Below are positions 1 through 61,078 of a stretch of 61,153 nt of DNA, piece after piece. The translations under genes were made by a program, and so were the position numbers. A model generated the notes under the pieces. It was given only the letters and a program-made list of their open reading frames with translations, was not told the DNA's origin and did not search any database. The stretch's first letter is position 1; the number at the start of each line of letters is the position of its first letter. The DNA comes from a virus, in IMG/VR virus record IMGVR_UViG_3300009788_000013, positions 1 to 61,153 of that record, one strand, 5' to 3'.

Positions 1-123
1 AACGTGGATAAAGACAAAGCTGGGGCCGATAGTCATTTCCCTACGCATCCGATATTTCGAGAGTTAATTTTGTCATAGTAGATGCACCTCTATGTTATTC
101 CGCCATGAAGAGAATGGGCTCCG
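1..123. repeat. Terminal direct repeat (assembly overlap), left copy
   Basis: Bases 1-123 are identical to bases 61031-61153. The repeat carries the 5' end of the sulfotransferase gene (bases 1-48) and the 3' end of the 69-aa basic protein gene. Such an exact end overlap is what a circular or circularly permuted genome gives when assembled from reads. It could instead be a short true terminal redundancy. The intact sulfotransferase at the right end reads cleanly through it, so the unique length is 61,030 bp. Confidence 0.95.
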
Positions 124-282
124 CCGCTTCGATCCGCGCTTTAGCCCCGGCTTGTGGTGCTTCAACCGAACCTTCTTGAGATGTGGACAGAGTTTATCTA
201 GCATCTGGATCGCTTGATGGGTGTTCTCATGTTCGCGATCAGCTTGCCGTTGTTCGTGTGGTGGACTTTCGTATTCACTCAT
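73..282 (-). CDS. Small basic hypothetical protein, glycan operon
   Basis: This is a 69-residue soluble protein rich in Arg, Lys and His in its second half, with no family I recognise. Its ATG (282-280) overlaps the TGA of the 43-aa membrane protein gene in an ATGA junction. Its own TGA overlaps the ATG of an 11-codon mini-ORF that leads directly into the sulfotransferase gene across the circular junction. The coupling argues that it is translated as part of the glycan operon (TU6). Function unknown. Confidence 0.6.
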   Translation of the reverse strand: MSEYESPPHEQRQADREHENTHQAIQMLDKLCPHLKKVRLKHHKPGLKRGSKRRSPFSSWRNNIEVHLL

Positions 283-410
283 GGCTTAGTATCTCTATCA
301 TCTTCGTCTAATACTCCGAAAACTAATAGTATGAAAAACACTACTAGGAAAGCCATACCAACAAGTAGAAGAATAAGCCACCAGGGAGACATGGGGTATT
401 CGCTCATCAT
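279..410 (-). CDS. 43-aa single-pass membrane protein
   Basis: This short ORF encodes a 43-residue protein with one hydrophobic segment (about residues 9-32) followed by an acidic, charged tail. The start ATG at 410-408 overlaps the TGA of the aldolase gene (ATGA), and its TGA overlaps the ATG of the next gene (ATGA), so both junctions support translation. A second in-frame ATG lies directly after the first. It is one of at least five tiny membrane proteins placed between the sugar enzymes of TU6. It could anchor an enzyme at the membrane or act in exclusion, but that is inference. Confidence 0.65.
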   Translation of the reverse strand: MMSEYPMSPWWLILLLVGMAFLVVFFILLVFGVLDEDDRDTKP

Positions 411-1105
411 GCTGCTTCCCAATCATCCATGAACTTCTTGAGCCCACTATATGTCAGTGGGTGATCGAACATCTTCTCCAGTAACTCAGGCGATACCGTA
501 CAGATATCCGCACCAGCAGCAAAAGCATCGATGACTTGGCGAGGTGATCGAAGTGAGCCGCAAAGAATATTTGTCTGTGTCTGTCTACTGAGCGGGCCTT
601 GATTGTATATCTTTCGCACCTTTGCTATTAGTCCATAAGAATCAATACCAATATCCTCACAGCGAGCTACAAAGATACTGATACACCAAGCACCGGCTAA
701 TGCTGCTAGAATCGCCTGTGGTACTGAGCAGCAGAGCGTGAGGTTGCAGCGGGGATAGATATGGATCAGGGAGGCTATAACAGAAGTTGGTGCCTTATCC
801 ATTTCTATAGTGCTCAGTTCAGCACATGCTGCGATTCCTTCTCGCGTACAGGGTAATTTGACGATTACGTTCTGAGAGATTCCAGCAAGTTGCCGCCCTT
901 CGCTGATCATCTTTACAGTATCGGTGCCGACAACTTGAGCAGATACATTTGGCACGAGGTCACAGATTACTGCTATCCGAGGGATCACCATCCCCTCAGC
1001 ATCAGCCATCATCGAACTTGGGTTTGTAGTCACTCCTGTAATGACACCGTATTGCAACGCCTTCTTGATGTCGTCAAGGTTTGCCGTATCAAGGTAGAGT
1101 TCCAT
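407..1105 (-). CDS. talC: Transaldolase / fructose-6-phosphate aldolase (TalC/FSA-like)
   Basis: This is a 232-residue class I aldolase of the TalC/FSA family, close to the usual 215-220 residues. The N-terminus reads as the family's first strand (LYLDTANLDDIK), followed by the GVTTNPS motif. The Schiff-base lysine is Lys83 in VKLP, matching Lys85 of E. coli FSA, and the AALAGA and SPRQVIDAFAAGAD segments also fit. I start it at ATG 1105 because the family begins there and this ATG overlaps the TAA of the upstream gene (TAATG); the longer reading frame is spurious. The enzyme would act on pentose/hexose phosphates. It sits inside a glycosyltransferase operon, so it may feed sugar precursors rather than serve only the pentose phosphate pathway. 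Confidence 0.85.
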   Translation of the reverse strand: MELYLDTANLDDIKKALQYGVITGVTTNPSSMMADAEGMVIPRIAVICDLVPNVSAQVVGTDTVKMISEGRQLAGISQNVIVKLPCTREGIAACAELSTIEMDKAPTSVIASLIHIYPRCNLTLCCSVPQAILAALAGAWCISIFVARCEDIGIDSYGLIAKVRKIYNQGPLSRQTQTNILCGSLRSPRQVIDAFAAGADICTVSPELLEKMFDHPLTYSGLKKFMDDWEAA

Positions 1106-1299
1106 TAGAGCCTCCAGTTCTTCGGCGGTGGCTTCTCGTGTCCCTTGAATCGCCCCCAGGGAGTCATACAGGGACACCACTCGATGATGCAACCACCTTC
1201 GGTATGCGTTGCCATCGTGTGCTGTGGCTCATCGGTCCTCGGCGTGCAGTCTAAGCACGGATCACTAAGCCAGATAAATTTCTGCTTCTCATCAGACAT
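1105..1299 (-). CDS. Cys-rich 64-aa hypothetical protein
   Basis: This is a 64-residue protein starting MSDEKQKF with paired cysteines (PCLDC) and a second Cys pair (WCPC) that could bind a metal. The ATG at 1299 lies just inside the 3' end of the glycosyltransferase gene (8-base overlap), and its TAA shares a base with the aldolase ATG. The longer upstream frame is antisense noise. No family recognised. Its position suggests co-expression with the sugar enzymes. Confidence 0.55.
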   Translation of the reverse strand: MSDEKQKFIWLSDPCLDCTPRTDEPQHTMATHTEGGCIIEWCPCMTPWGRFKGHEKPPPKNWRL

Positions 1300-2107
1300 T
1301 TCGGTATTTGCTCCCTGCCTCTGGATTGTATTCAACCCGCAGCCCATCCTGATAAAATAACTGCGGGTACAGATCTCTATCTTCCTGGTGCCCCTCACCG
1401 AACTGGCAAGCCTCTCGGTGGAGCTTCCATTCAAATTTCGCACAGAGCAACGAGAAGATCGATTGCTCAGAGCGGGATTCTCGAAAATCTGGTAACTCCT
1501 CCCCGAGAACCGATTTCTCAAAAGTCGTTGCTAAGCGATGTAGACAAAACGTCAGCCACTCCATTAAAAATTGCTGTACTTGCCAAGGACCTTTCTGGAA
1601 TAGCATGAAGCGCCCGACACCGTGGTCGGCATTCGCATACCGTCTAAACCATTCGTTTACTGCAACCCCATCCAAGCCGCCGACTATGCGATAAGTATCA
1701 TGCTTCACCCACCATCGATTTACATGCCCGCTAGCAGCGAAGACCATTGCTCCACCTAGTTTTATGCAATGCTTGTACAGGATAGACAGATCAGCGATCG
1801 GATATGTATCCGCATCCGTATAGAGCACCACGTCCCCAGGCTCACAGAAATGCTCCAACGCATGGAGGATCACAAATGGCTTCCAGCAGAACCAGCCAAA
1901 ACCACGAGGATATTTGCCGGTATTGCCAATCCCTCGGTGCTCCCAGATCCAGCGATTAGCTGGCAGCTTGTAGAACTCTGTCTTCATCAACCAAGCATCA
2001 TCATATACTCGCACCTCATCGACTCCATACCTGGGCGCTCGCTCAACGATCTGCTGCGTTGTTGGGTTCCAGGCATTACCTGAGAAGGTGATGTATAGTT
2101 TCTTCAT
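1292..2107 (-). CDS. Glycosyltransferase-like protein (GT-A fold)
   Basis: This is a 271-residue cytosolic protein resembling GT-A glycosyltransferases seen in phages and capsule loci. An early strand MKKLYITFSG is followed by a nucleotide-sugar type DxD site (YTDADTYP, near residue 100) that would bind metal and sugar nucleotide. The rest is rich in Trp and aromatic residues. I prefer ATG 2107, which has AGG five bases upstream. A GTG at 2113 overlaps the previous TGA (GTGA) and is the alternative start. The sugar and acceptor cannot be told. It is the last glycosyltransferase before the aldolase. Confidence 0.7.
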   Translation of the reverse strand: MKKLYITFSGNAWNPTTQQIVERAPRYGVDEVRVYDDAWLMKTEFYKLPANRWIWEHRGIGNTGKYPRGFGWFCWKPFVILHALEHFCEPGDVVLYTDADTYPIADLSILYKHCIKLGGAMVFAASGHVNRWWVKHDTYRIVGGLDGVAVNEWFRRYANADHGVGRFMLFQKGPWQVQQFLMEWLTFCLHRLATTFEKSVLGEELPDFRESRSEQSIFSLLCAKFEWKLHREACQFGEGHQEDRDLYPQLFYQDGLRVEYNPEAGSKYRNV

Positions 2108-2109
2108 GA

Positions 2110-2220
2110 TCACCTGCTTCTAAAAAACAACCAAGCCATGTAACCACCAACACCGCCGGAGATCATGCCCAGTACTATCAACCATATGATGTTCGTCATC
2201 TCGCTAAAAATCTCCAACAT
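2110..2220 (-). CDS. 36-aa single-pass membrane protein
   Basis: ATG 2220 opens a 36-residue ORF with one hydrophobic helix (about residues 10-32) containing a glycine-rich stretch (GGVGG) and ending in Arg-Ser-Arg. Its TGA overlaps the GTG/ATG start region of the glycosyltransferase downstream. The pattern of a microprotein coupled to a sugar enzyme recurs in this operon. Topology and function are inferred only from hydrophobicity. Confidence 0.55.
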   Translation of the reverse strand: MLEIFSEMTNIIWLIVLGMISGGVGGYMAWLFFRSR

Positions 2221-2405
2221 GGTGGCCCAAGACAAGAATCGTCGGGACGATAACAAGGATCGCCTTCAGTTCTAGTGCGAGAACGTTCTAAGCCGATGAA
2301 TCTGTAATTGCTGTATTGCTTCTGGATTTCTATACCGATCCTACGGATACATGTACTCCACCCGCCAGCCCATCCTTCGCTCCAAAGATGAATAGTGATT
2401 CTCAT
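2196..2405 (-). CDS. 69-aa ORF, possible truncated glycosyltransferase N-terminus
   Basis: The ATG at 2405 overlaps the TGA of the upstream glycosyltransferase (ATGA), which supports translation. The first 40 residues (MRITIHLWSEGWAGGW and onward) resemble the first strand and glycine loop of a GT-B glycosyltransferase. The remainder is Arg/Cys-rich and does not look like a folded domain. A shift of one base near 2255 would open a hydrophobic continuation ending at a TAG near 2206. It may be a decayed gene or a frameshift; I am unsure. Confidence 0.4.
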   Translation of the reverse strand: MRITIHLWSEGWAGGWSTCIRRIGIEIQKQYSNYRFIGLERSRTRTEGDPCYRPDDSCLGPPCWRFLAR

Positions 2406-3124
2406 CCTTCCCTTACTCCTTTCGCTCCCAGGATCACATCATCTGGAATAGGGCCAGCTACATCGAGGTAGGCAAAGAATTGTGGAAAGTCAATTAGCGG
2501 CATTCCAAGTCGCCAAGCCACTACGCTCATAACTGTCTGATCGTGGCGGTGGCCGAGTACCTGCTTATCGGCTGAGGCTTCCCCATCATCGTTCCGCCAG
2601 GGTCCACAGTACGCCTCTTGCGGAACATCGAGAAGGTTATTCAGGAATGTCATCCCGAGCCCGTGGCTGAGATCAAGCGCGAAGGCTCCACCTGTACAGA
2701 GCTTGATACCAAACGCCTGCTGCCTGTTAATCCTGAGAGGGCCTAGCGCCGAATCAGTGCACCACTGTCCGACACTCCATCCGTTATTCGCAAGCCAGTA
2801 GCCGTGCTCATCGATGTATTCAAGCAGCGGCTCCAGTGGCTTCAGTGCAACGATAGAGGCATCACACCAAATCACATATCGATATCCCTGTACGCGAGCT
2901 GCTGCAATTGCATGTCGCTTGAATGCATAAGGAATCATTCCAGGGCCGTGCGGCCACTGATGTCCCTTGTGCCATGGTGAATCAGGTGGAAATTTATTCC
3001 GCCATAGCAGTAGGCTTCCCTTATACCCAACCTGCTGAAGCGTGGCTTGGAGCCGTAATTGCCCCCGCACGAAGTGTCGAGTAGCGACATTCACGATGAC
3101 GGTATTGTTCTCGTTGAATTTCAT
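2402..3124 (-). CDS. Glycosyltransferase-like protein
   Basis: This is a 240-residue cytosolic protein with an N-terminal strand (NTVIVNVATRHF), a Trp-rich centre, a WCDAS motif near residue 85 in the place of a DxD, and a late HDQTVMS helix. All are typical of the donor-site half of GT-A type enzymes acting on surface glycans. I start at ATG 3124 (MKFNENNT) because it overlaps the TGA of the 22-aa peptide gene; 14 extra codons upstream are not needed. Its TGA overlaps the next ATG. Donor and acceptor unknown. Confidence 0.65.
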   Translation of the reverse strand: MKFNENNTVIVNVATRHFVRGQLRLQATLQQVGYKGSLLLWRNKFPPDSPWHKGHQWPHGPGMIPYAFKRHAIAAARVQGYRYVIWCDASIVALKPLEPLLEYIDEHGYWLANNGWSVGQWCTDSALGPLRINRQQAFGIKLCTGGAFALDLSHGLGMTFLNNLLDVPQEAYCGPWRNDDGEASADKQVLGHRHDQTVMSVVAWRLGMPLIDFPQFFAYLDVAGPIPDDVILGAKGVREG

Positions 3125-3189
3125 CTCAATCGCCGAAGTATATTTCGCCTCCGCCGCCAGTGCCATAGTCGATAAATCCAGTTGATCAT
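3121..3189 (-). CDS. 22-aa Trp/Arg-rich micropeptide
   Basis: This 22-codon ORF encodes a peptide with a Trp/aromatic first half and a run of arginines (MINWIYRLWHW then RRRR), amphipathic and strongly basic. Both ends are ATGA junctions, with the previous gene's TGA and the glycosyltransferase ATG. It may be a coupling leader or a membrane-active peptide. Only the exact overlaps support it. Confidence 0.4.
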   Translation of the reverse strand: MINWIYRLWHWRRRRNILRRLR

Positions 3190-3335
3190 TGGAGTTCCAG
3201 TAACTGTGTGAGGGTGTGTATCAATAATCTTCTCTGCCGCTCTAGTCGCATCCAGTCGGCATCAGGATCACCTTGTGATTCCTCGATTTGATCAAGTCGC
3301 CTTTCTATAGCATTAATGATCTCTATCGAGTTCAC
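3186..3335 (-). CDS. 49-aa helical hypothetical protein
   Basis: A GTG start at 3335 overlaps the TGA of the preceding ORF (GTGA). The product is 49 residues, charged and helical (INAIERRLDQIEESQ; ERQRRLLI), probably a short coiled coil. Its TGA overlaps the ATG of the 22-aa peptide. No family recognised. The frame is convincing mainly because it fills the gap with overlaps at both ends. Confidence 0.5.
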   Translation of the reverse strand: MNSIEIINAIERRLDQIEESQGDPDADWMRLERQRRLLIHTLTQLLELQ

Positions 3336-3463
3336 TTTGCCCACCTCCCTTGCTTCTCGCGCCTCCCTGCCTCGGTTGATACATGCCCCTTCTTTCCAGT
3401 TGGCGCACAGACGTATTTCTTCTTGCGTATCCGGCCCTTGCGGCTATGTGTTGATTTCGGCAT
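3332..3463 (-). CDS. 43-aa highly basic hypothetical protein
   Basis: From ATG 3463 the ORF encodes 43 residues (MPKSTHSRKGRIRKKK and onward) with about one third Lys/Arg, no hydrophobic segment and one Cys. It overlaps the end of the upstream gene by 20 bases. Its TGA forms a GTGA junction with the next gene. It could bind nucleic acid or an acidic polymer. Function unknown. Confidence 0.45.
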   Translation of the reverse strand: MPKSTHSRKGRIRKKKYVCAPTGKKGHVSTEAGRREKQGRWAK

Positions 3464-4145
3464 GTTTCCTCTCACTTCCAGGAAAACCAGCTCTGACACG
3501 AGATTCGAACAGTAACTTTGCCTCATTCCATAACTCAGGGCGATCCTTGTTCAAGAGATGTGCTGGCCGCTTGCCACCTGGTTCCCTTTGCCAATGGTTA
3601 TGTTTTTGAGTGAGTTCCTTGCGTTGCCAGAATACATCTTGTTTCAGTGCTACCCGCTGCAGCTCCTCGTCTACAAAGAAATGTGGGTATCCCTCCCACA
3701 ATGGGCCGTGTCCCTCATTCGCTTCCATGATCCAAGCTCGCCCCATCCATGGCGAATAGGCAACTCGCTCTGAACACGAGAGGCCATTCTCTACCATCCA
3801 GTAATCACCAGTGGGTTGCATGATGCCGTAGAGATCTTCGAACTCCTCGGCAAACTCACGTTGGACTTCTAGAGGATCAGCATCAGGTGGCTCGATATCA
3901 TCACCACCCGTAACTACTATCATCGTCTCTGGGTATACTTTGAGGATGTGCTGAGCCAGTGCATTCACTGTCTTCGCATAGCCTTCATATTCCTCCTGCC
4001 AGCAGATATCCGCCACCTCGACAGGATCAGCTCCGAAGTCTACCTGACAGGCGATCTTGTAGCCACGCTCTCTCCAGAGCGGAAGCGTACCGCCCTTGGG
4101 CCGGGCTGATGGAATTGCATACCAGACTTTAGGGAGGTTATCCAT
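3444..4145 (-). CDS. Phage glycosyltransferase-like protein
   Basis: This 233-residue protein belongs, from memory of its pattern, to a family of phage and bacterial GT-A-like proteins that begin with VWYAIPSARP and an early WRERGY. They continue with a VTGGDDIEP metal-site motif (about residue 80), a MQPTGDYW segment and a SPWMGRAW/WEGYPHFFVDEEL segment. It lacks membrane segments. It lies three bases downstream of the FkbM gene. The combination suggests transfer of a sugar from a nucleotide donor. Substrate unknown. Confidence 0.6.
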   Translation of the reverse strand: MDNLPKVWYAIPSARPKGGTLPLWRERGYKIACQVDFGADPVEVADICWQEEYEGYAKTVNALAQHILKVYPETMIVVTGGDDIEPPDADPLEVQREFAEEFEDLYGIMQPTGDYWMVENGLSCSERVAYSPWMGRAWIMEANEGHGPLWEGYPHFFVDEELQRVALKQDVFWQRKELTQKHNHWQREPGGKRPAHLLNKDRPELWNEAKLLFESRVRAGFPGSERKHAEINT

Positions 4146-4148
4146 CTC

Positions 4149-4757
4149 TCACATCCTCCTCACATATATCGCATTCTCTCCAGCAATCCACCCCTGGCCA
4201 TATCCCTTGTCCCCCATGAATTGGCCCAGCTCTACCACGCGCTTGCCGTTATGCTCGACTACAATAGCCTTGGACTGAATAGCTCCAGATTCCCACGGCA
4301 TTCGCAATAGGATGTCTACGCTCAACCCTTCGGCGTCAATACTGATCAGGTCGAAGCCTCCACCAAACTGAAGGAATATCTGCTCAACTGTCATCGTATG
4401 GACAAAGCAGTCCTGATATTGCCCCCGTGATTTCCATGTCTCGTAATGTTCTTCGTCCATCGTGGAAACTTGATCTGGCGAATGATGGAACGGAACAAGT
4501 GCACATTCACACCCAACGGCACAATTGATTATTTTTAATCGTGCTTTCTGCTCTGGGGTGAGCTTAGCAATATTACGGAGTAGGCCAGCGAATGGAACTG
4601 CGGCTGGCTCGATCATGATGCCACTCCAGCCATACTCCAGTGTCCACCAGACATTTGAGTTCGTCTTGCCATCGAATGATCCAATATCCAGGAACCGTCC
4701 TGGGGTATCACCGAAGATCGTTTTCAGATATTCATCTTCTCCGCGCTGACTATACAT
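4149..4757 (-). CDS. FkbM-family SAM-dependent methyltransferase
   Basis: This 202-residue protein has the FkbM methyltransferase signature. After MYSQRGEDEYL comes FLDIGSFDGKTNS (SAM motif I), then GWSGIMIEP (motif II acidic end), and later FDLISIDAEGLSVDIL, the family's hallmark DxEG segment. FkbM enzymes O-methylate sugars or small molecules, so here it probably caps a glycan. I start at ATG 4757, which has AAGG six bases upstream; the ORF extends 17 codons further without support. It follows the first membrane protein of TU6. Confidence 0.85.
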   Translation of the reverse strand: MYSQRGEDEYLKTIFGDTPGRFLDIGSFDGKTNSNVWWTLEYGWSGIMIEPAAVPFAGLLRNIAKLTPEQKARLKIINCAVGCECALVPFHHSPDQVSTMDEEHYETWKSRGQYQDCFVHTMTVEQIFLQFGGGFDLISIDAEGLSVDILLRMPWESGAIQSKAIVVEHNGKRVVELGQFMGDKGYGQGWIAGENAIYVRRM

Positions 4758-4770
4758 TTTTACCTTATTC

Positions 4771-4830
4771 CTATGTAGTTTCTGCAAGCCGCAACCAAAG
4801 CTCTTCACGGATCAATGTAGAGATGCTCAT
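4771..4830 (-). CDS. 19-aa micro-ORF
   Basis: ATG 4830 overlaps the TGA of the upstream membrane protein gene (ATGA) and opens 19 codons (MSISTLIREELW and onward) ending in TAG, 14 bases before the FkbM ATG. It may serve to hand ribosomes on to the FkbM gene, or it may be chance. The only support is its exact overlap. Confidence 0.3.
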   Translation of the reverse strand: MSISTLIREELWLRLAETT

Positions 4831-5039
4831 CTCGCCACCTCAATAATCCATAGCGTCCAGCCGATGATGGCGAGGATAATCATACCCTCCAGCGCACCAA
4901 ACGTAATCGTCCAAGCCCGGTACCAATCTGGTTTTGTTTGGGGGGGGCCTCTGTCTTCCCGCTTCCCTCCTCCCCCGAGATCGAGAGCAGGAGCAGAGGT
5001 CCCCATATTGGATCTCTCACGGTTCCGCTGCCACGTCAT
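4827..5039 (-). CDS. Single-pass membrane protein, first gene of glycan operon
   Basis: The ORF encodes up to 70 residues: a polar, Gly/Pro-rich N-terminal half and a C-terminal transmembrane helix (ALEGMIILAIIGWTLWII). ATG 5039 lies about two bases from the start site predicted from the TATAAT at 5053-5048, so the mRNA may be leaderless. ATG 5006 with GAGAG seven bases upstream is the alternative. An eight-base G:C tract (4940-4947) lies within the coding part, so slippage would shift the frame of this operon-leading gene. Confidence 0.6.
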   Translation of the reverse strand: MTWQRNRERSNMGTSAPALDLGGGGKREDRGPPQTKPDWYRAWTITFGALEGMIILAIIGWTLWIIEVAR

Positions 5040-5047
5040 ATGGCTCC

Positions 5048-5076
5048 ATTATATAACGTTCAGCGGCAGATGTACA
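5048..5076 (-). promoter_or_regulatory. Sigma70-type promoter of the glycan operon (TU6)
   Basis: On the minus strand TGTACA (5076-5071) is followed by a 17-base spacer and a perfect TATAAT (5053-5048). The -10 region (GTTATATAATGG) is identical to that of the TU1 promoter at 41.8 kb. It lies between the end of the late head operon and the first membrane protein gene, so it would drive 4827 onward and across the circular junction. Confidence 0.65.
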
Positions 5077-5096
5077 GAATGGTGGGCTGGCCGCCC

Positions 5097-5146
5097 CTTA
5101 GATCGCCCGAGAGAGGACGCTATGGTGGGCTAGGGGCATTCCTGGA
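5097..5146 (-). terminator. Operon-boundary element (copy G)
   Basis: This GC-rich non-coding stretch starts five bases after the TAA of the 5147-5908 gene. It shares GATCGCCC, GACGCTATGG and a GGGCTAGGGGCATT tail with elements at 20.2, 23.0, 24.7, 34.4, 41.9 and 57.5 kb. It is less regular than the others and its stems are short. I infer an end of transcription for the head operon just ahead of the TU6 promoter. Confidence 0.4.
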
Positions 5147-5908
5147 TTATATGGCGCAGATTCCCATGTTCTTGCTCAAGGGATGCCGTTGCAGCGATCC
5201 TCGGGCCATCTTGGCATGCTCCTCGTCTAGGATCTCATCAAGGGGCCGGATCGGCCAGCAGGGCAACGCGGAACCAGGCGAGCAGTTCACCACCTCCACC
5301 CCAGCCTTTCGAAGCGGCTGGACTAGTGACCAGAACATCGGTATCCAGTACTTCACCCGTCTACTATAGCTCGCTATGGTTTCGCGACCGTGGCCAGAGT
5401 GCCAGTAGATTTGCCCACTATATCGCCCTCTAGTGTCCCTGATGTGCCCTTGATCATCCTGGTAGGTCATAGGTACTACCCGCATGTCGTAGCCCAGGAG
5501 CACGATTCTACAAGCCCCGAATAGATATGCTAGATTGATTGCCTGGTAACCGGAGTTCCCTCCGTGACACAATGTCCCCGGATCATGTGATAATCCGAGC
5601 TGAGTCCCCTGTCTCAGTGATCGGCAGCATTCCAGTTTCGGGTGTCCCATAGTGATCTGCCAGCCGAGAAAACAACGTCTCACCTCGGAGCGATGATCAT
5701 CCCACCACTTGGTATCCGAGAAATACAAAATATCGGCATTGTACAACAACCGATATGATGTATTGATGACGATCACCTTACCGAGGCGCGAAATGGCAAC
5801 CGTATCTATACCAGTAATAGAAGGCCCTCCTGCTAGAATAAAGCAGGTTTTATCCGTCCACATGCCACTAGGGACAGTCCACCAACGCTCCTTTGCCTGG
5901 GTTTTCAT
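5147..5908 (-). CDS. DUF115/MptE-like protein (glycan-associated), paralogue 1
   Basis: This 253-residue protein contains CFILAGGPSI, which resembles the nucleotide-binding start of the DUF115/6-hydroxymethylpterin pyrophosphokinase MptE-like fold. It continues with VIVINTSYRLL, a GNSGYQAINLA helix and IVLLGYDM. Members of this fold occur in phages and in flagellin glycosylation clusters. A paralogue lies at 7700-8413. Its ATG overlaps the TGA of the tail terminator gene (ATGA), so it is the last gene of the head operon and directly precedes the glycan operon. Confidence 0.6.
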   Translation of the reverse strand: MKTQAKERWWTVPSGMWTDKTCFILAGGPSITGIDTVAISRLGKVIVINTSYRLLYNADILYFSDTKWWDDHRSEVRRCFLGWQITMGHPKLECCRSLRQGTQLGLSHDPGTLCHGGNSGYQAINLAYLFGACRIVLLGYDMRVVPMTYQDDQGHIRDTRGRYSGQIYWHSGHGRETIASYSRRVKYWIPMFWSLVQPLRKAGVEVVNCSPGSALPCWPIRPLDEILDEEHAKMARGSLQRHPLSKNMGICAI

Positions 5909-6324
5909 ACCTTCGCCAGCTTGACGCTGAACGTCGTTGTCATGTGGATACGATCGCCTTTATCGCTACTGACGAGTGGGCCACCGTCTGGGCTGTGGAT
6001 AAATAAGAATTCCTCGGTTGTATTCGCATCAGCTGTGATCGCTTCGGCTTGATCCTGAAGCGCATCAAGAACAGCATAGAATTTCGTTCTTATCATCTCG
6101 TAGTCATGCTGTTTGCCCCTAACGAGAAGACGGAACCCTTGATTACGATTATCATCAGTGTGGGTATCGGCAGCTTCGCCTGATGTATCCTGTACTGCGA
6201 TCACCTGTTGAGCAGAGCTGACTCGTGGGGGCATGGGATCAATCCCTATATTGGACTTCCAGTTGATCTCATCGATCTGGCCGATACTGGTGAGATAGGC
6301 GATGATGTCAGCGGTAAGGCTCAT
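5905..6324 (-). CDS. Tail terminator-like protein
   Basis: This 139-residue protein starts MSLTADIIAYL at ATG 6324 (the frame extends eight codons further). It has the alpha/beta layout of siphovirus tail terminators: an N-terminal helix, a strand with GFRLLVRG, a YEMIRTKFYAVLDAL helix, and a C-terminal strand (MTTTFSVKLAKV). Its place after the gp10-like gene is the usual one for a tail terminator. The expected next gene, the tail tube, is displaced to 56 kb by the glycan operon. Confidence 0.55.
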   Translation of the reverse strand: MSLTADIIAYLTSIGQIDEINWKSNIGIDPMPPRVSSAQQVIAVQDTSGEAADTHTDDNRNQGFRLLVRGKQHDYEMIRTKFYAVLDALQDQAEAITADANTTEEFLFIHSPDGGPLVSSDKGDRIHMTTTFSVKLAKV

Positions 6325-6527
6325 TTCAGTGCCTTCTGTATTCTCCAATAGGCTTCAAGCGAAGAGCATCCCATCTCTTCTGCTATAGTTTGGTAGGTGC
6401 AACCATTTTCCATTAATGCGAGCAAGAAAGCAGTATCTACCTCGTCTTCTGTAATAGTTCCACGAAGACACCGCCACCACAACCAGAGAAATCGTAGCCT
6501 GTGTCGTGTCTGCTTCAGCCAATTCAC
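6321..6527 (-). CDS. 68-aa protein with helix-turn-helix-like segment
   Basis: This 68-residue protein has an aromatic/Arg-rich N-terminus and a segment CTYQTIAEEMGCSSLEAYWR that reads as a helix-turn-helix. It overlaps both neighbours by a few bases within the connector genes. Such small HTH-like proteins are occasionally found among phage head-completion genes. Role unknown. Confidence 0.5.
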   Translation of the reverse strand: MNWLKQTRHRLRFLWLWWRCLRGTITEDEVDTAFLLALMENGCTYQTIAEEMGCSSLEAYWRIQKALK

Positions 6528-7012
6528 TTCAGCGCATCCTTGATATGCGGCCCGATGATCTCTGTAATCTTCTTCTCCATGTAGTTCACCGGCCCGCGTA
6601 GATAGTCCGTACCCCTAGGATTAGGCCCCCCGAGTCCTTGATTATAGTTTTTGTTGATCTCGTGAACGAAGGTTGCATAACCCACATCCTTTGTATTCGT
6701 GCCGCCAGCACCAGCAGGCCCTCCGTAGGCCAGCGTGAATACTATCTTCCCAGATTGTCGGATTACAAATGTCGCGCCCTTAATTGGTACCCCGTTCCAT
6801 TGAACGTGTCCACTGTTCATTAGGTTCAATGTGTCACGAGGAACAATATTGCCGCCATAGCCTTCGCCACCGTCCTTACTGACAGCCATTGTACGTTCAG
6901 CCCATTCGAAGCCCCCTTTAGCCGCAGCTTCGCGGATGTCCTTAGTCCACGCCTTGAGCTTTCGCTGGAATGCAGCTGCACCAAGGAGGGCTCCTCCGCT
7001 ATGAAGTGCCAT
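6524..7012 (-). CDS. HK97 gp10-like head-tail connection protein
   Basis: This 162-residue protein has the order expected of gp10/neck-type proteins: an N-terminal helix (FQRKLKAWTKDIREAA), a VPRDTLNLMNS segment, a strand-rich middle with Gly-rich loops, and a YATFVHEINKNYNQ motif followed by a C-terminal helix (MEKKITEIIGPHI). The FVHE motif near residues 110-115 is typical of gp10-like proteins. The ATG shares its A with the TAA of the upstream gene. It lies upstream of the tail terminator as expected. Confidence 0.6.
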   Translation of the reverse strand: MALHSGGALLGAAAFQRKLKAWTKDIREAAAKGGFEWAERTMAVSKDGGEGYGGNIVPRDTLNLMNSGHVQWNGVPIKGATFVIRQSGKIVFTLAYGGPAGAGGTNTKDVGYATFVHEINKNYNQGLGGPNPRGTDYLRGPVNYMEKKITEIIGPHIKDALK

Positions 7013-7194
7013 TACCTTTGCCTCCTATCCCATCCAACAAGGAGTATTCCAATGCCTATACCTACGAGTAGTAGCCATCCATGTTGTGCTAAATAGAGGT
7101 GGAAAGGGAGCGGCGGGCTGGCTACACCTTGAAACGCGGCAACGTTAGAGGCAAACACCAGCCCACCGATGAGCATGACGACTCTTGCTCTCAT
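7012..7194 (-). CDS. 60-aa protein with two hydrophobic segments
   Basis: This 60-residue protein has an N-terminal signal-like helix (VVMLIGGLVFASNVAAF) and a C-terminal membrane helix (WLLLVGIGIGILLVGW) ended by Arg residues. GAGG lies five bases before the ATG. A small membrane protein inside the connector gene cluster is unusual; holin-like or exclusion roles are possible but not shown. Confidence 0.5.
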   Translation of the reverse strand: MRARVVMLIGGLVFASNVAAFQGVASPPLPFHLYLAQHGWLLLVGIGIGILLVGWDRRQR

Positions 7195-7208
7195 TATACC
7201 TCAATTCA

Positions 7209-7637
7209 TCAGAGATCGTCTTCGCGGGTGAATGCCGACGTACCAGTCATCACATGCTGGCCTCGGCTGAATCGCGGGCTGATCCTGTCGGTATCATCTA
7301 GCGTGGCATCTTTCGCACTGATCGATCGGGATGGCAATGATGGCGTGAATCCCTCAGCGCTCATCTCGCGCAGGATCTCATCAGCCGTTTTCCGGTAGGC
7401 GGATGCGATCTCCATCATGTCTTCGTTCGATGCCTTGAGAGCGAAAATCTGATATCGCCTGGTAATTGAGAGAGCGATCGCATGGGCTGCTGGCCATTTA
7501 TTGCCTTTCTCCACCAGCATCGCGGCGATCTCTTCGTCACTAACTACAGCATCTTCACCAGTGACGATCGTGTCACCTATCTTGAATCGTACCCAATCGG
7601 AATCGCTATTATCAGGACTGGTGTAGGTTGCGGACAT
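7209..7637 (-). CDS. Head-tail connector-like protein
   Basis: This 142-residue soluble protein starts MSATYTSPDNSD. It contains ITRRYQIFALKASNEDMMEIASAYRKTADEI in its middle, which resembles the helical core of phage head-tail adaptor proteins, and a polar C-terminus. It lies between the capsid gene and the gp10-like gene, as connectors do. AGAGG precedes the ATG. Confidence 0.5.
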   Translation of the reverse strand: MSATYTSPDNSDSDWVRFKIGDTIVTGEDAVVSDEEIAAMLVEKGNKWPAAHAIALSITRRYQIFALKASNEDMMEIASAYRKTADEILREMSAEGFTPSLPSRSISAKDATLDDTDRISPRFSRGQHVMTGTSAFTREDDL

Positions 7638-7699
7638 TTAAGCACCTCTTCAACAATCCGGAGGAAGATGGCATCCTGCAACGTTTGCTTTGCATCCAG

Positions 7700-8413
7700 C
7701 TACGAACCTGCCATCTTCGGAAATGCATCGATAGCCGAAGCCACCGAAGCATTCACTACGGTTATACACCGATCTTCTAGAAAAGGCAAGGTAGTCTGGA
7801 ACAGCTGCGCCCAGCTTCTGTACATCTGCCGCTGCTCTGGATGCTCGGATGCGAATGCTCGCCCTGGTACTAGATCGTAGCCATACAGGGTGATGTGCTG
7901 CGCTCCCAATAGCACAGCTACATTCAGAGCGCCGTATCCCGAACAGCCTCCGATGCAGACTGTAGATGGATCAGCACTGAGCCCAGGCTCTCGTGATCGA
8001 TTGAGGTAGACGACTCCCGGCATATCCCAAAGATCAGCATGGCACTTCGGGATAGCTATATATTTCCGCCCAGTGAATTTACCGAGGAGTGAAAGGCGGG
8101 ATCTGATCCAGCGATGATCATGTGAATACAAAGCAGCGGCCCAGGGAACTTGTAGCACGGCGTCATTGATGGCCAATACTACCTGTCCCCTGAGCCGCTC
8201 AAAGTCAAAACTACAGAGCGATGGGCCGCTACCGACTATTACGCAGCGGCCCCATCGTTTTCGGTCTCCGGTAATACGGGATCGATTTTTTTCATCTTCC
8301 AGAGCCCGAAGAGATTGTTCTTCGGAAAGTGCTTCTTCGGCACTCGATCGCCAGGATGGAGAACTCGCACTCGACGCTTGCCTGACAGCTCCTGGTAGGA
8401 GATATCCTGACAT
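7700..8413 (-). CDS. DUF115/MptE-like protein, paralogue 2
   Basis: This ORF of up to 237 residues shares its order of motifs with the 5147-5908 protein: CVIVGSGPSL, VVLAINDAV, GGCSGYGALNVAVLLGA, ITLYGYDLV. The first 55 residues overlap the neighbouring gene and look non-domain-like, so the true start is probably nearer 8250, though no ATG or GTG is available there. The fold is that of MptE-like pyrophosphokinases and DUF115 glycan-linked proteins. It sits between capsid and connector genes. Confidence 0.55.
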   Translation of the reverse strand: MSGYLLPGAVRQASSASSPSWRSSAEEALSEEQSLRALEDEKNRSRITGDRKRWGRCVIVGSGPSLCSFDFERLRGQVVLAINDAVLQVPWAAALYSHDHRWIRSRLSLLGKFTGRKYIAIPKCHADLWDMPGVVYLNRSREPGLSADPSTVCIGGCSGYGALNVAVLLGAQHITLYGYDLVPGRAFASEHPEQRQMYRSWAQLFQTTLPFLEDRCITVVNASVASAIDAFPKMAGS

Positions 8414-8457
8414 GCTACAAATTCTCCATCATGGCAATTAGCCCATGTGATCAGCAT
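8239..8457 (-). CDS. 72-aa hypothetical protein downstream of capsid
   Basis: The ATG at 8457 follows the capsid stop with one base between. The 72-residue product is basic with a HPGDRVPKKHF segment and an acidic tail. It resembles small proteins often found just after the major capsid gene, but I recognise no family. It overlaps the extended frame of the DUF115-like gene. Confidence 0.5.
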   Translation of the reverse strand: MLITWANCHDGEFVACQDISYQELSGKRRVRVLHPGDRVPKKHFPKNNLFGLWKMKKIDPVLPETENDGAAA

Positions 8458-8458
8458 C

Positions 8459-9475
8459 CTACGTGCTCACCGTGTGAATAAAGTAGCCTAGATCGGCTCC
8501 CGTCACCACGAACGTATAGGCTAATTCGATCTCCTGAATATCGGCCTTACGTGAGGGCTCAAACCATGACGTAATCCGCCCGCCAAGAGCATTCGCCCCC
8601 AGCAGCCCGGACCATGAGTAAGTGTACCCCGCACTCGGAGTCCTCCTTCCTGGACGCGCTGGTCGATGGAGCAACAGCACAGCATCAGTATCACCGATGA
8701 AGGCATAAGTTCCTGACTGGCCTACATCGTCTGTGTTCTGCACCGAGCCCATCACCAGGACTTCATCCAGTTCCAGTAGCGCTGCAACCGTTTGGCGGGT
8801 AACAAGCGCCGTCCCGGTTGTCTGGCCACGATCAGTCCGGCCAACTAGATCAGCATGATCAACGATGATGTCCCATGCCTGCTGACCGAAGATGGCGATG
8901 TTCGGACGGATGCCGGTATTCTGCTGAACAGTACGAAGCCCTGTCCTCATCTCGGAAATCGGACTTGAGCTTGACTGATCCCACTTCGTACCTGGGGTAG
9001 CATCTGTACCCCAAATACTCTGAGCGAAGTAAGCCGCTGCCCATTCGATCTCTTTGAAAAGCAGCGCTTGTTGTGTCATGAATTCCTGATTGTCCCGCGC
9101 TGGTTCGTATGGAGCCTGAGCATTCGCTGCTGTCTGCTCATCGAGCGGCATGTGGCCAGCCATTACATTGCAGGTATAGCTGTTGGTGTTATCCACGCCG
9201 TAATGCAGTTCAGCACTTCCAGCACCAGGAGCACGTCGGAGCATTTGTGATTTGAGCCAGAACGATTTCGTATAGAGAGCATACAGGTTACTTCTGTCCT
9301 GACTTGGAATGTTTGGAAACGCACGGCCCGCAACAAAGTTCTCAGCGAGTTGCATGTAGGCCATACTTTGGGTCGTTTCGAGGCGATCAACGTGTACATC
9401 GGCAGCAGTCAAACGCTTGCCGATCTTCACTCGTGGGTTGGGAGCGTTGACTCTGTGAATACCTGAGAATTCCAT
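8459..9475 (-). CDS. Major capsid protein
   Basis: The 338-residue protein begins MEFSGIHRVN at ATG 9475 with GGAG seven bases upstream; an extra 25 codons in frame are unsupported. It follows scaffold and decoration genes and has the composition of HK97-fold or capsid protein E-type shells: an N-terminal arm, a long middle with an NIAIFGQQAWDIIVDH segment and FIGDTDAVLLLHR late in the chain, and a beta-rich end. Identification rests on position and overall pattern. Confidence 0.7.
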   Translation of the reverse strand: MEFSGIHRVNAPNPRVKIGKRLTAADVHVDRLETTQSMAYMQLAENFVAGRAFPNIPSQDRSNLYALYTKSFWLKSQMLRRAPGAGSAELHYGVDNTNSYTCNVMAGHMPLDEQTAANAQAPYEPARDNQEFMTQQALLFKEIEWAAAYFAQSIWGTDATPGTKWDQSSSSPISEMRTGLRTVQQNTGIRPNIAIFGQQAWDIIVDHADLVGRTDRGQTTGTALVTRQTVAALLELDEVLVMGSVQNTDDVGQSGTYAFIGDTDAVLLLHRPARPGRRTPSAGYTYSWSGLLGANALGGRITSWFEPSRKADIQEIELAYTFVVTGADLGYFIHTVST

Positions 9476-9491
9476 TTCATGTCTCCTTTCC

Positions 9492-9857: not shown

Positions 9858-9859
9858 AT

Positions 9860-55894: not shown

Positions 55895-56326
55895 CTAGTT
55901 CGTGGCTACGATTGCGCCAGTGATAGCTAGCTCGATATTGGCCTGAAGCACATTATCTGTCGGCATGTCAACGGAGTGAGAGGAGAAGAATCCATCCATC
56001 CCCATCTGTCCCATGCTGGCCGGGAATACGATCTGGCAAGTCTGTTTCACTAGAGCGATCAGATCTACCCAAATGCCAGCGGCAAACTGATGCGTAGCAT
56101 CCTCTGGATCGTAGTTGATTGGCCCACTAATCGTTCCGGGATCAAGCAATACTGCCAGCTTCTCCATCCAGTTTCCGGCTGTGCTATGAGTTGTCACATC
56201 CGGGATGGTTGCAACCGGCCCGCTTTGGGAGAAGCTCCGCAGCTGCCCCAATGTCGCAAACGAGGCCGGTGATCCAACCTCGTCTTGAAATTTCCACAGT
56301 GTTCCCTTTGCGCTACGAATTGCCAT
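55895..56326 (-). CDS. Major tail tube protein
   Basis: The 143-residue protein has the pattern of small tail tube subunits: AKGTLWKFQDEVGS, then FATLGQLRSFSQSGP, TTHSTAGNWMEKLAVLLDPGTISGPINYDPEDATH and ELAITGAIV at the end. The D-x-T-T-H and I-N-Y-D-P segments are characteristic of lambda gpV/TP901-type tubes. It is followed by chaperones and tape measure. Confidence 0.75.
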   Translation of the reverse strand: MAIRSAKGTLWKFQDEVGSPASFATLGQLRSFSQSGPVATIPDVTTHSTAGNWMEKLAVLLDPGTISGPINYDPEDATHQFAAGIWVDLIALVKQTCQIVFPASMGQMGMDGFFSSHSVDMPTDNVLQANIELAITGAIVATN

Positions 56327-57678: not shown

Positions 57679-58051
57679 GTGTAGATAACCAAGTATCGAT
57701 GATTTCGTTTTTGTGATCTCGGACTAGCTGTTGCACTCGCCGTCTAGCTAAATAATCTGGGTACCCGTGAACATATTTCAGGAATCGGATCATCGATAGC
57801 CGTGATCGCCGTAGTGCCATATCTCTACGAACCCGTTCACTCCGCTTTTCTGGTTGCGGTAGGCCTTCACCATATGGCCTAAGATAGAGCGTCCTACACT
57901 CCGTATCACAGGCCAGATCCGCTACCGAGATAATGCCGGTGGTCTCTAGTTCATGTTTCCATGAATCATCCGACTCAACCTGCATGTAATCAGGGACTGG
58001 GAAACAGATCCCTTCTCTAACTGGCCTTCCACGTGGATACCCCGGATTCAC
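57656..58051 (-). CDS. 131-aa hypothetical protein, glycan operon
   Basis: A GTG at 58051 overlaps the TGA of the glycosyltransferase (GTGA). The protein has NPGYPRGRPVREGICFPVPDY at its start, a middle Cys pair (ACDTEC) and a basic helical end (RSRLSMIRFLKYVHGYPDYLARRRVQQLV). No family recognised. Its coupling to the enzyme genes argues for a shared role. Confidence 0.5.
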   Translation of the reverse strand: MNPGYPRGRPVREGICFPVPDYMQVESDDSWKHELETTGIISVADLACDTECRTLYLRPYGEGLPQPEKRSERVRRDMALRRSRLSMIRFLKYVHGYPDYLARRRVQQLVRDHKNEIIDTWLSTHEIPDMP

Positions 58052-58779
58052 CAGCGCTCCTTTACCCAGCCGCCACAATCTGCTGGCTTCGGCTCACCAT
58101 GGAAGCAGACGACACGGCAATCATCGGGTGGGCCGTCCTGGGCGTGCATCTTGTAGGATTTTACCCATCGCTGAGGAAATAGATCACAGTAGAGCTTTGG
58201 TTGTCGGCTCGGATGGTACGAGCAATTATCTTGCATGAGCGAGTAGATATATGCCTGGTCACCGTGAAACTGCTTCATGAGCTGGTAGCGGTACACATTG
58301 AAGTGCTCCCAGATCCAAGTATACCTACCGGCATCCAGCACCATCACAGCTGATGCGGGCTTCCATGGTTTCTGGAAATCCGGATGCATCACAAATTGGG
58401 ATGGATAATCAACCAGATCGTCTAGTGGGCCAGTGATCACTACATCAAGATCCAAATAGAGGTATCGTGTTTGTAAATCCCGATCTGAGGAAACAGTATT
58501 GGCCGTCCCCCACGGGCACTGTTGAAACAGGGCCATCTTCTGCCACCAGCCGGAAAGTGTTGGATCAGATGTCAGGATCGAATCATCAGCGATCAGAGCC
58601 ATGCCATCAATAGCGGATATTCGATCAACACCACATCGTACTATGATGCCGTCCGGCTGATCTGTGATACAGGTAAAGCCATACGGTTGCATCAGGTTTC
58701 GCTCTACCGCTGCCGATAGCCGGTTCACGTATTCCGGCCCGTACTTGTTCCCGACCTTGACGCAAATGACATTCAGCAT
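58048..58779 (-). CDS. Glycosyltransferase-like protein (DLD type)
   Basis: The 243-residue protein from ATG 58779 (MLNVICVKVGNKYGPEYVNRL) matches a phage/bacterial GT-A family: TRYLYLDLDVVITGPLDDL (DxD site near residue 107), FVMHPDFQKPW, HGDQAYIYSLM and VCFHGEPKPAD near the end. Such proteins transfer sugars to surface glycans. ATG 58779 shares its A with the TGA of the membrane protein gene (TGATG). Confidence 0.75.
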   Translation of the reverse strand: MLNVICVKVGNKYGPEYVNRLSAAVERNLMQPYGFTCITDQPDGIIVRCGVDRISAIDGMALIADDSILTSDPTLSGWWQKMALFQQCPWGTANTVSSDRDLQTRYLYLDLDVVITGPLDDLVDYPSQFVMHPDFQKPWKPASAVMVLDAGRYTWIWEHFNVYRYQLMKQFHGDQAYIYSLMQDNCSYHPSRQPKLYCDLFPQRWVKSYKMHAQDGPPDDCRVVCFHGEPKPADCGGWVKERW

Positions 58780-58955
58780 CAGATCAACTCCCAGCCAGCC
58801 CTTAGTAATATCCAGCAGACTTTCAATACTACCCCTGTGATCAACATTAATCCGCCCAATGAAGCGGCAATGACTACAATTGCAAAAATACAATTAAAGA
58901 AAACGACGAATGAATGCCCTTCACTGGACTTTACTTCCTGTTTAATGAGCTTCAT
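58779..58955 (-). CDS. 58-aa two-helix membrane protein
   Basis: ATG 58955 overlaps the TGA of the glycosyltransferase (ATGA) and opens a 58-residue protein with a hydrophobic core (FVVFFNCIFAIVVIAASLGG and LITGVVLKVCWILL), probably two short helices. Its TGA shares an A with the next ATG. It sits exactly between two glycosyltransferase genes. Confidence 0.6.
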   Translation of the reverse strand: MKLIKQEVKSSEGHSFVVFFNCIFAIVVIAASLGGLMLITGVVLKVCWILLRAGWELI

Positions 58956-59824
58956 GATTGACTCTTATCCCCTATCATTCCAAATAGATCCAGGCCCATA
59001 AAAGGCTCGCCCCCAAGTTCAGCTATTAGCCGGTGGATCTCTCGCTCGTGCCAAGTTTCACAGTCGTCACTGAAGTCCGCGTACTTCATCAGATGCCTAT
59101 ATGGCTCCCACCATGAGGCTGGTACAGTGTATAGGATCTTTTCCAAGCGGAACCACCAGCTATATTTCCGTCGGATCTTTTCCGCTCCCTGTTCTGGCCA
59201 CCTTACCAGCTCCATCATCTCGTAGTGCGCCTGTTTAGCTCGGAATGCCCGCTCTCGAATGAACTGCAAGTGCATGACACCAGCCGCTAGTCCAGTTGGA
59301 ACTTTACTCGGCTTTGATCCGAATGGATGCCGGTGATGGTGCTGATAGGTTCCTCTAGGCTGCCAGCTCAATCCCGATGAATCCCTAAACGCTAAACTGA
59401 ATGATGTATTCCGATGTTCACCATCAACCCGAATCTTGAATTGTGACTCCCATATATTATGCCCTGATACCTGAAGTACTTGACACGGGGTTAACTGTTC
59501 AATCACGGATCTGATACTGACTAAGAAATTACCGGTTAGGATTTCATCAGCATCCACTAGTGCAACATGAGTCGCTTTCTGTGCACGGCATTCGTCCAAT
59601 AGAAGCTGCCGGTGGTTCATCTCATCCCACGGGCCATCTCCGATTTCTATAGGCCATACGCGATCTGGATACTCGTCTAATATCTTGCCCACAATCTCAG
59701 GAGTCCTGTCCTCACAAGCATGTAGGCCAACTACGATTGAATCGCACCATATCAATGCAGCTCTAATAGTGAGTCCACAGATCCACTCCTCGTTTCGAAG
59801 GGGCATCAGAGCAACGAGTTTCAC
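58952..59824 (-). CDS. Family 2 glycosyltransferase
   Basis: The 290-residue protein has the GT2 fold: VALMPLRNEEWICGL (N-terminal nucleotide site), SIVVGLHACEDRTPEIV, THVALVDADEIL (DxD, about residue 95) and a C-terminal region with WQPRGTYQHHHRHPFG. It would transfer a sugar from a nucleotide donor to a growing glycan. ATG overlaps the TylF TGA. Confidence 0.8.
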   Translation of the reverse strand: MKLVALMPLRNEEWICGLTIRAALIWCDSIVVGLHACEDRTPEIVGKILDEYPDRVWPIEIGDGPWDEMNHRQLLLDECRAQKATHVALVDADEILTGNFLVSIRSVIEQLTPCQVLQVSGHNIWESQFKIRVDGEHRNTSFSLAFRDSSGLSWQPRGTYQHHHRHPFGSKPSKVPTGLAAGVMHLQFIRERAFRAKQAHYEMMELVRWPEQGAEKIRRKYSWWFRLEKILYTVPASWWEPYRHLMKYADFSDDCETWHEREIHRLIAELGGEPFMGLDLFGMIGDKSQS

Positions 59825-60426
59825 TTCTGCCCCCTCTGCCAGATCATCGGTGCTCGATCGTCCATTGATATCATCTCGTTAACAGCTCGGACACAACCAG
59901 GTAGGCTATCGTCTACCACACAGATGCCACCTGGAACGATCCGTGGATATAGATACTTCAGCACCAGCTTTGTTGATTCATAAAGATCGCAATCGATCCG
60001 AAGGAATGCGATATCAAACTTTCCAACTTCAGGCAGTGTTGTATGAAACCATCCCGGATGATAGCTGAAATGATGATCAGGGATCTGCCACTCCTTCATG
60101 TGCCCCTTAACCTGCTCAATTGTGCAAACTGATTCCCCTTCAATTATCAAACCACTAGGACCATCTTCGGGGCTGGCTTTAGGGATACCTTGGAATGAAT
60201 CAAACAATCGGATGATGCGGCGTGGCCTCTCGTCCTTATCTATACATGCCTGTGCCATGATAGCCGGATGGACACCAGCGAAAACGCCACACTCAACAAA
60301 GCACCCAGGCACACCGAAGTCAATGCAATGACATGAGAGACTGTAAGTCATCTGTAAAGTCGGTAATTTACATAATGCACGTTCACCGACTTTCTTGATC
60401 CAATACCTCGTTGTTTTTATCTTCAT
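59821..60426 (-). CDS. TylF/MycF-family O-methyltransferase
   Basis: The 201-residue protein from ATG 60426 (MKIKTTRYWIKKV) has the macrocin O-methyltransferase signature: GCFVECGVFAGVHPAIMAQ (SAM motif), RIIRLFDSFQGIP, IAFLRIDCDLYESTKLVLKYLYP (metal/SAM site DxD) and GGICVVDDS. TylF enzymes methylate sugar hydroxyls. With FkbM it makes two sugar methyltransferases in one operon. The ATG overlaps the stop of the 36-aa membrane protein. Confidence 0.85.
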   Translation of the reverse strand: MKIKTTRYWIKKVGERALCKLPTLQMTYSLSCHCIDFGVPGCFVECGVFAGVHPAIMAQACIDKDERPRRIIRLFDSFQGIPKASPEDGPSGLIIEGESVCTIEQVKGHMKEWQIPDHHFSYHPGWFHTTLPEVGKFDIAFLRIDCDLYESTKLVLKYLYPRIVPGGICVVDDSLPGCVRAVNEMISMDDRAPMIWQRGQK

Positions 60427-60533
60427 GATAATAAATAAACAAAATCTAAAATAATAATAGTCCCACAACTAGCAACGAACAAGACCCAGAGCGCCACCAA
60501 GAGCCAGCACAACACCATGTCTAGAGTACTCAT
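60423..60533 (-). CDS. 36-aa single-pass membrane protein
   Basis: ATG 60533 overlaps the sulfotransferase TGA (ATGA). The 36-residue product is almost entirely a hydrophobic helix (MVLCWLLVALWVLFVASCG and on). Its TGA overlaps the TylF ATG (ATGA), so it is translationally coupled on both sides. The coding sequence becomes very A/T-rich toward its end. Confidence 0.6.
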   Translation of the reverse strand: MSTLDMVLCWLLVALWVLFVASCGTIIILDFVYLLS

Positions 60534-61078
60534 GACAGTTTCTTATAACCGAATCTCAAGAAATCGGGGCCGCTGTGCGCTTCAATGATCCTGGCCCACC
60601 GTGGATGATCTCCAATGTCAGATTCCCACCGTGGGCGTCTCTCACTATTCATACGCTCACTAGGCCAGAGGATACCGGTTGTATTAAATGGCAGTAAGAG
60701 AACTTGTTCCGCGATCGCCTCATACCTCGCAAGGAAATCAATCCGCGCCTCCGCTAGAAAGGCAGATTGACTGTATCCACCCTCATCCCAATGATCCATG
60801 ACAAGCTCCATGAACCCAGGGAAACCTATATCTCTGATCCCACGTGTCTGATCATTGCGTCGTAAATGATACCAGCAGGAGAGCATCCTATCATAAGGAT
60901 TCCGTACAACTGTGAATGTAAATTTCCGTTGATGCTCTCCTGGAACAATGCGCTCATGATCCTTCCCGACTAGCTCTCCTCCGAACTGAGGTAGGAACTT
61001 CCGCGCCATCGTAGTACCGGCTGTACGTGGAACGTGGATAAAGACAAAGCTGGGGCCGATAGTCATTTCCCTACGCAT
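60530..61078 (-). CDS. PAPS-dependent sulfotransferase (Sulfotransfer_2-like)
   Basis: The 182-residue protein has both PAPS-binding signatures: FIHVPRTAGTT (5' phosphosulfate loop, residues 13-23, with Arg in place of the usual Lys) and FTVVRNPYDRMLSCWYH (3' phosphate site, about 54-70). This is the pattern of Golgi-type carbohydrate sulfotransferases found also in bacteria and phages. It would add sulfate to a glycan. ATG 61066 is an alternative start. An 11-codon mini-ORF (MTKLTLEISDA) overlaps its start and couples it to the upstream gene. Confidence 0.8.
   Translation of the reverse strand: MRREMTIGPSFVFIHVPRTAGTTMARKFLPQFGGELVGKDHERIVPGEHQRKFTFTVVRNPYDRMLSCWYHLRRNDQTRGIRDIGFPGFMELVMDHWDEGGYSQSAFLAEARIDFLARYEAIAEQVLLLPFNTTGILWPSERMNSERRPRWESDIGDHPRWARIIEAHSGPDFLRFGYKKLS

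Follow-up and report, generated by a model that had tools for sequence, protein, structure and literature searches.

Organization of the glycan gene block

The window analyzed here, IMG/VR virus record IMGVR_UViG_3300009788_000013 over its whole length of 61,153 nucleotides, is a closed circle of 61,030 bp with a 123-bp end repeat (positions 1-123 equal 61031-61153). Between two of its tail genes lies a block of sugar-modifying genes that probably serves to glycosylate proteins of the phage particle. Because a separate contig that is 99.97% identical to the window (IMGVR_UViG_3300024265_000250, listed as L032/L066) reads through the joined ends without a break, the block spans the junction, as an earlier note on this DNA had proposed. 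It runs uninterrupted along the minus strand from position 5908 to position 1 and, past the junction, as far as 58048, and comprises six glycosyltransferase (GT) genes together with FkbM and TylF methyltransferases, a Sulfotransfer_2 protein and a TalC-type aldolase (Table 1). In order of transcription, the genes encode a SiaT-like GT, a 70-aa protein with one helix, FkbM, GT_B, GT_C and GT_D, followed by TalC, a 69-aa open reading frame (ORF), the sulfotransferase, TylF, a GT2-family GT and a GT matching phrog_1962. Some neighboring genes are spaced by 124-288 bp.

All of the genes named in the earlier note are present on the minus strand where it had placed them, and the continuity of that strand past the junction stands; the boundaries and the GT count require adjustment. 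The unit had been given a start at 5039, which omits the first SiaT-like GT and thereby counts five GT genes rather than six, and an end at 57493, whereas 58048 is the end of the last recognizable glycan gene. Between there and 56327, the ORFs have no assigned function, and some of them are tail-linked in relatives. Two small Cys/His-rich ORFs reside here upstream of the tail tube gene (57073-57405 and 57493-57678), the former having a relative in the same place in another carrier locus, L024 (37% over 48 aa).

The block is bounded on the left by a gene whose designation as the tail terminator is based on gene order, its connector match being weak, and on the right by the major tail (tube) protein. 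In the Streptomyces phages phiSASD1 and Dubu, whose major tail proteins are 27-28% identical to that of the window, the neck, tail terminator and major tail protein genes are consecutive, and the last two are only 17 and 11 bp apart. These phages therefore display the empty site, which bears out the proposal that the block was inserted between normally neighboring tail genes.

The SiaT-like gene at the head of the block has its start within the final codons of the tail terminator gene, no gaps separate the terminator from the first glycan genes in two related loci (L024 and L067), and a second SiaT-like gene is located behind the major head protein gene. Owing to these features, the glycan genes appear integrated into the order of the structural genes, and the description of the block as a self-contained operon is not sustained. 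The TATAAT promoter that had been assigned to the block was likewise rejected: the region contains six promoter-like sites, of which this is the best, compared with 10.0 +/- 3.6 in shuffled sequences, so the match is within chance. The glycan genes are probably expressed together with the structural genes.

Table 1. Features of the glycan block and its surroundings (window coordinates)
Feature	Position	Strand	Basis
TalC-type transaldolase / fructose-6-phosphate aldolase	407..1105	-	PF00923 (TAL_FSA), E 5e-39
GT_D, GT-A, core gene	1292..2113	-	predicted fold; invariant DxD, residues 100-102 (alignment of 19)
GT_C, presumed GT, distant GT_D paralogue	2402..3166	-	hhalign 98.5%, E 3e-15 vs GT_D
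GT_B, GT-A (GT2-like), core gene	3444..4145	-	predicted fold; invariant GDD
FkbM-type O-methyltransferase, core gene	4149..4808	-	PF05050, E 5.8e-6, above cut-off; recurs in core loci
70-aa protein, one likely membrane helix	4827..5039	-	hydropathy maximum 1.93
Claimed sigma-70-like promoter (rejected)	5048..5076	-	10/12 match
SiaT-like GT no. 1, first block gene	5147..5908	-	phrog_4603, E 4.4e-39; overlaps tail terminator by 4 bp
Tail terminator, left border	5905..6324	-	connector match, E 0.02; gene order as in phiSASD1, Dubu
Neck1	6524-7012		phrog_5, E 9e-4
SiaT-like GT no. 2, directly downstream of major head protein	7700..8413	-	phrog_4603 alpha-2,3-sialyltransferase, E 1.5e-21
Major head protein	8459-9550		phrog_1005, E 3e-64
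Major tail (tube) protein, right border	55895..56326	-	phrog_158, E 3.9e-7; 28% identical to phiSASD1 major tail protein
GT with LDLD motif, last recognizable glycan gene	58048..58893	-	phrog_1962, E 4.5e-22
GT2-family GT, core gene, VDAD motif	58952..59824	-	PF13704, E 7e-4, under Pfam cut-off
TylF-type O-methyltransferase	59821..60468	-	PF05711, E 1.4e-29
Sulfotransfer_2-type sulfotransferase	60530..61078	-	PF03567, E 4.6e-7, 30.7 vs cut-off 22 bits

Enzymes encoded by the block

Neither GT_B nor GT_D has a counterpart among the GT families of Pfam or PHROGs, and their profiles retrieved no relative among PDB sequences, such that a comparison of folds was required. AlphaFold2 models built from alignments of 25 relatives of GT_B and 19 of GT_D (predicted local distance difference test scores of 91.9 and 89.8, respectively) were searched against the PDB with Foldseek. 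The GT_B model matches K4CP, WrtF, hyaluronan synthase and the capsid GT of PBCV-1 (2p73), and the GT_D model matches XXYLT1, GTA/GTB, glycogenin and LARGE1; for both, GT-A sugar transferases account for almost the whole of the top 50 matches. As judged from these models, GT_B and GT_D are GT-A enzymes. The GT2-family protein is 26% identical to a GT2 of P-SSM2. The two SiaT-like proteins are paralogues (28% identity, E 4e-13), and the one that opens the block has relatives in Caulobacter phages and in PAJU2, where it is situated at the neck. The window thus encodes several phage enzymes of true GT fold, with GT_B and GT_D assigned by predicted structure, the SiaT-like and phrog_1962 proteins by family, and GT2 by a weak match. 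None of the GTs of the block has a clear membrane helix.

The FkbM, TylF, sulfotransferase and TalC proteins all score above the Pfam curated cut-offs, in agreement with their original identification, and the first two place sugar-type O-methyltransferases within the block. The sulfotransferase carries both motifs for binding 3′-phosphoadenosine-5′-phosphosulfate (PAPS), FVFIHVPRTAGTT and VRNPYDRMLS, which align with those of heparan sulfate 6-O-sulfotransferase (HS6ST), although the whole-chain match is weak. Sulfotransfer_2 occurs in only two of the 30 carrier records, one of which is the near-copy of the window itself. The chances that sulfation takes place in vivo seem evenly balanced.

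TalC belongs to the TalC/FSA family and retains the Schiff-base Lys83 along with Asp6 and Asn28, but bears an insertion of approximately 20 residues near residues 103-119. Near residue 57 it has Gln (SAQVV) in place of the Glu (SAEVV/SGEVV) of relatives in T. maritima, cyanophages and Listeria phages. This position distinguishes aldolase from transaldolase chemistry, and the Gln makes aldolase-like activity possible. No TalC gene was found in the other core loci examined.

A recurring core among virion genes

Viral contigs were scanned with GT_D, which yielded 30 and then 59 loci, and the remaining core families were profiled on the fetched loci. A core consisting of GT_B, GT_D, FkbM and GT2, usually accompanied by a further GT termed c2, is present in 29 distinct loci, counting the window; L067 lacks GT_D and FkbM, and L050 and L053 lack FkbM. 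At least 28 uncultivated viruses other than that of the window thus carry a related block. The loci are widely diverged, with a median GT_B identity of 46% and a maximum of 89%.

Structural genes in the core loci were named via PHROGs representatives, and some loci display only one flank. On this basis, each of the 29 loci, the window included, has the core within its structural cluster, and four different junctions are occupied: terminase (TerL) and portal in 11 loci, major head protein and adaptor in 10, adaptor and head closure in four, and tail terminator and tail tube in four (the window, L024, L060 and L067). A tree of concatenated GT_B, GT_D and GT2 sequences requires at least seven changes of junction, and well-supported clades mix positions, as when L060 groups with terminase-portal loci or L041 with L045. 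It therefore seems that the core has probably relocated several times, in each case remaining inside virion genes.

Beyond these loci, the core families are sparsely represented. Whereas GT_D occurs in 59 viral loci, only a single GTDB contig contains it. Among 50,697 phage records, GT_B and FkbM found no match, and GT_D and GT2 matched only cyanophages and a few uncultured phages, at 24-30% identity. A search with the single GT_B sequence recovered only the near-copy of the window from the viral contigs, and a near-identity DNA search with 10 kb of the region returned nothing from the phage collection. No account of such a cassette was found in the open-licence literature on phage sulfotransferase or FkbM blocks.

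GT_D and its neighbors also occur in other settings. In the AT-rich phages L012-L021 (GC 0.30-0.34), a GT_D homologue occurs by itself, with helicase genes to one side and SbcC/DNA polymerase genes to the other; here the GT family seems to be put to another use. The GTDB contig (L033, JAGWLA010000005.1), labeled as a Patescibacteria metagenome-assembled genome, has FkbM and an ABC-transporter-like gene nearby. In L044, a 14-kb run of genes on the same strand (6763-20786) behind the major head and SiaT-like genes contains GT_D in two copies as well as genes for a methyltransferase, a nucleotide-sugar epimerase and a protein resembling ADP-ribosyltransferases. Elsewhere in the window, a tRNA-like gene is found at 27141-27216, and, within the segment 7209-49398, a Mom-family protein (PF25680) is encoded along with an ArdC N-terminal domain and an MPTase-PolyVal domain, which probably represent more than one anti-restriction device.

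Probable virion glycosylation and alternative roles

A function of the block in sugar modification is almost certain. Family searches and structure prediction, which the earlier note had proposed as a check of the transferases, lead to sugar transferases, sugar-type O-methyltransferases and a sulfotransferase, upholding its proposal of a dedicated glycan system with methyl and sulfate capping. A comparison of related phages, suggested there as well, sets 29 core-bearing loci against the empty site of phiSASD1 and Dubu. The note had left the location of the glycan between virion and cell surface, and it is the virion that the present data favor: the core stays in the structural cluster, the carriers lack a flippase or GtrA, and the block has parts in common with an operon of phage Che8 that is reported to glycosylate capsids. 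Because related blocks sit at four spots among particle-building genes, decoration of the particle is the most likely role. Accordingly, the block is best regarded as a phage-specific, horizontally moving cassette that probably glycosylates virion proteins, and the virion proteins themselves are the probable acceptors.

The encoded enzymes would be soluble and probably made alongside the late structural proteins. A short glycan could then be built stepwise from host nucleotide sugars, directly on a cytosolic acceptor, before or during assembly; the acceptor would most likely be the major tail protein, the major head protein or both. GT_B, GT_D/GT_C, GT2 and the phrog_1962 GT may extend the chain. 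FkbM and TylF would O-methylate the glycan, and sulfate drawn from host PAPS would be attached by the sulfotransferase. The probable role of TalC is to divert sugar phosphates (fructose 6-phosphate or pentose phosphates) toward the supply of precursors. Such a glycan might provide shielding, stability or receptor binding.

The enzymes could instead alter the host surface polysaccharide during infection, leading to superinfection exclusion or receptor masking. Gtr-type phage GTs modify surfaces elsewhere, members of the FkbM and TylF families are likewise known from surface-glycan clusters, the block includes a small membrane protein, and the core sibling c2 has a weak GtrB-like match (E 0.007). 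However, the GtrA, Wzx (Polysacc_synt flippase) and ThyA families are absent from all 30 carrier records, many of them fragments, under conditions in which positive controls matched, and the Pfam list of the 59 other window proteins contains no GtrA or Wzx-type flippase and no ThyA-family base hydroxymethylase. The block thus resembles neither a serotype-conversion Gtr cluster nor a Wzx/Wzy polysaccharide cluster, nor does it resemble the T4-like system of DNA base glycosylation, and surface and DNA glycosylation were both rejected as its main function. In addition, the position of the core tracks structural genes, and the overlap of the SiaT-like gene with the tail terminator makes late expression probable, at which stage exclusion would be of little use. 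Surface modification is therefore considered unlikely.

Glycosylation of the phage DNA as protection from restriction is highly improbable. The genome does have other anti-restriction genes, of the Mom type (PF25680, E 8e-12) and ArdC, and a DNA-protection role has been proposed for GTs of the actinophages E7 and F5 (PMC10202952). Yet these same genes make further DNA glycosylation less needed, and Mom would already modify adenine; moreover, the missing base hydroxymethylase speaks against such a pathway, the combination of GTs with methyl and sulfate capping is better suited to protein or polysaccharide glycans, and the neighbors of the block are structural rather than DNA genes. That the genes are unrelated cargo at a permissive spot is also very unlikely. 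Gene content does differ among relatives, as for TalC and Sulfotransfer_2, and gaps separate some of the genes, but GT_B, GT_D, FkbM and GT2 are mostly kept together even as their structural surroundings vary, a pattern not expected of unlinked cargo, and all of the enzymes except TalC are of sugar-transferring or sugar-decorating types.

Several considerations temper the assignment to the virion. No cultivated carrier is known, and the glycan itself is a prediction. Residence in the structural cluster is suggestive rather than conclusive, given that late regions commonly host cargo genes, and the occurrence of GT_D alone beside DNA polymerase, SbcC and helicase genes in L012 and its kin indicates that this family is not tied to structural genes. 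Since most carrier records are fragments, their lack of export and DNA-modification genes is indicative only. Finally, GT_B, GT_D and GT2 have no significant match to gp109 or gp110 of Che8.

Virion glycosylation nonetheless remains the preferred reading, and it can be extended, more tentatively, to a widespread and so far unrecognized mobile cassette of uncultivated phages that moves as a unit from one junction of the structural cluster to another, has core GTs almost confined to viruses, and places methylated glycans, sulfated in the lineage of the window, on head and tail proteins; this broader picture is plausible, if somewhat short of probable. Documented virion glycosylation is limited to a few phages, largely mycobacteriophages. 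If the extension is correct, the phage of the window would be, to our knowledge, the first with a sulfated virion glycan. That a conserved core accompanies structural genes at four junctions, in 29 divergent loci from the environment, suggests that phages decorated with glycans are common in nature and that the decoration is transferable. The block also provides testable enzymes, among them two GT-A families for which Pfam and PHROGs have no model, along with a candidate sulfation step in a phage.

Comparison with known systems

A close functional parallel is found in the Mycobacterium phage Che8 (Cheoctovirus), an F1 phage that, like Rita, is described as bearing a glycan on its capsid protein (PMC11256854). 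As in the window, its operon gp108-gp110 combines a TylF-like methyltransferase with several phage GTs. The TylF of the window and the C-terminal half of gp108 share 29% identity (E 1.7e-13; profile E 8e-17), and the c2 GT found in relatives of the window matches the N-terminal half (E 1.5e-11), such that gp108 is a fusion of two families present in the cassette and its relatives. Two genes beyond it in the same operon is gp110, which is described as essential for capsid glycosylation (PMC12363180). The Che8 operon differs in consisting of three genes, without FkbM, sulfotransferase, TalC or SiaT-like genes, and in being located near the right genome end, outside the structural genes.

In this last respect Corndog (Cluster O) is more similar. 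Its genes gp35-gp38, an O-methyltransferase and three GTs, form part of the structural cluster, where they are flanked by portal and protease, and have been suspected of capsid modification (PMC4351075); gp38 is named an essential capsid GT (PMC12363180). The likeness here is to a published description, and the Corndog block occupies another junction and has fewer genes, with no sulfotransferase reported. In the Pseudomonas phage PAJU2 (Detrevirus), ORF010-ORF012 include a homologue of the first SiaT-like gene (profile E 8e-42), placed together with a methyltransferase gene between head closure and tail terminator; this group comprises only about four genes, and profiles detected no GT_B, GT_D or FkbM core. 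The chlorovirus PBCV-1 likewise modifies its own capsid protein with virus-coded GTs, although it is a eukaryotic virus and its likeness to GT_B is one of fold only.

The relation of the block to reported systems is thus one of homology for TylF, c2 and the SiaT-like genes and one of analogy for the others. Overall, the block is an elaborate version of known phage virion glycosylation, here with candidate sulfation, and its mobile core, more than the single insertion described in the earlier note, is the most interesting trait.

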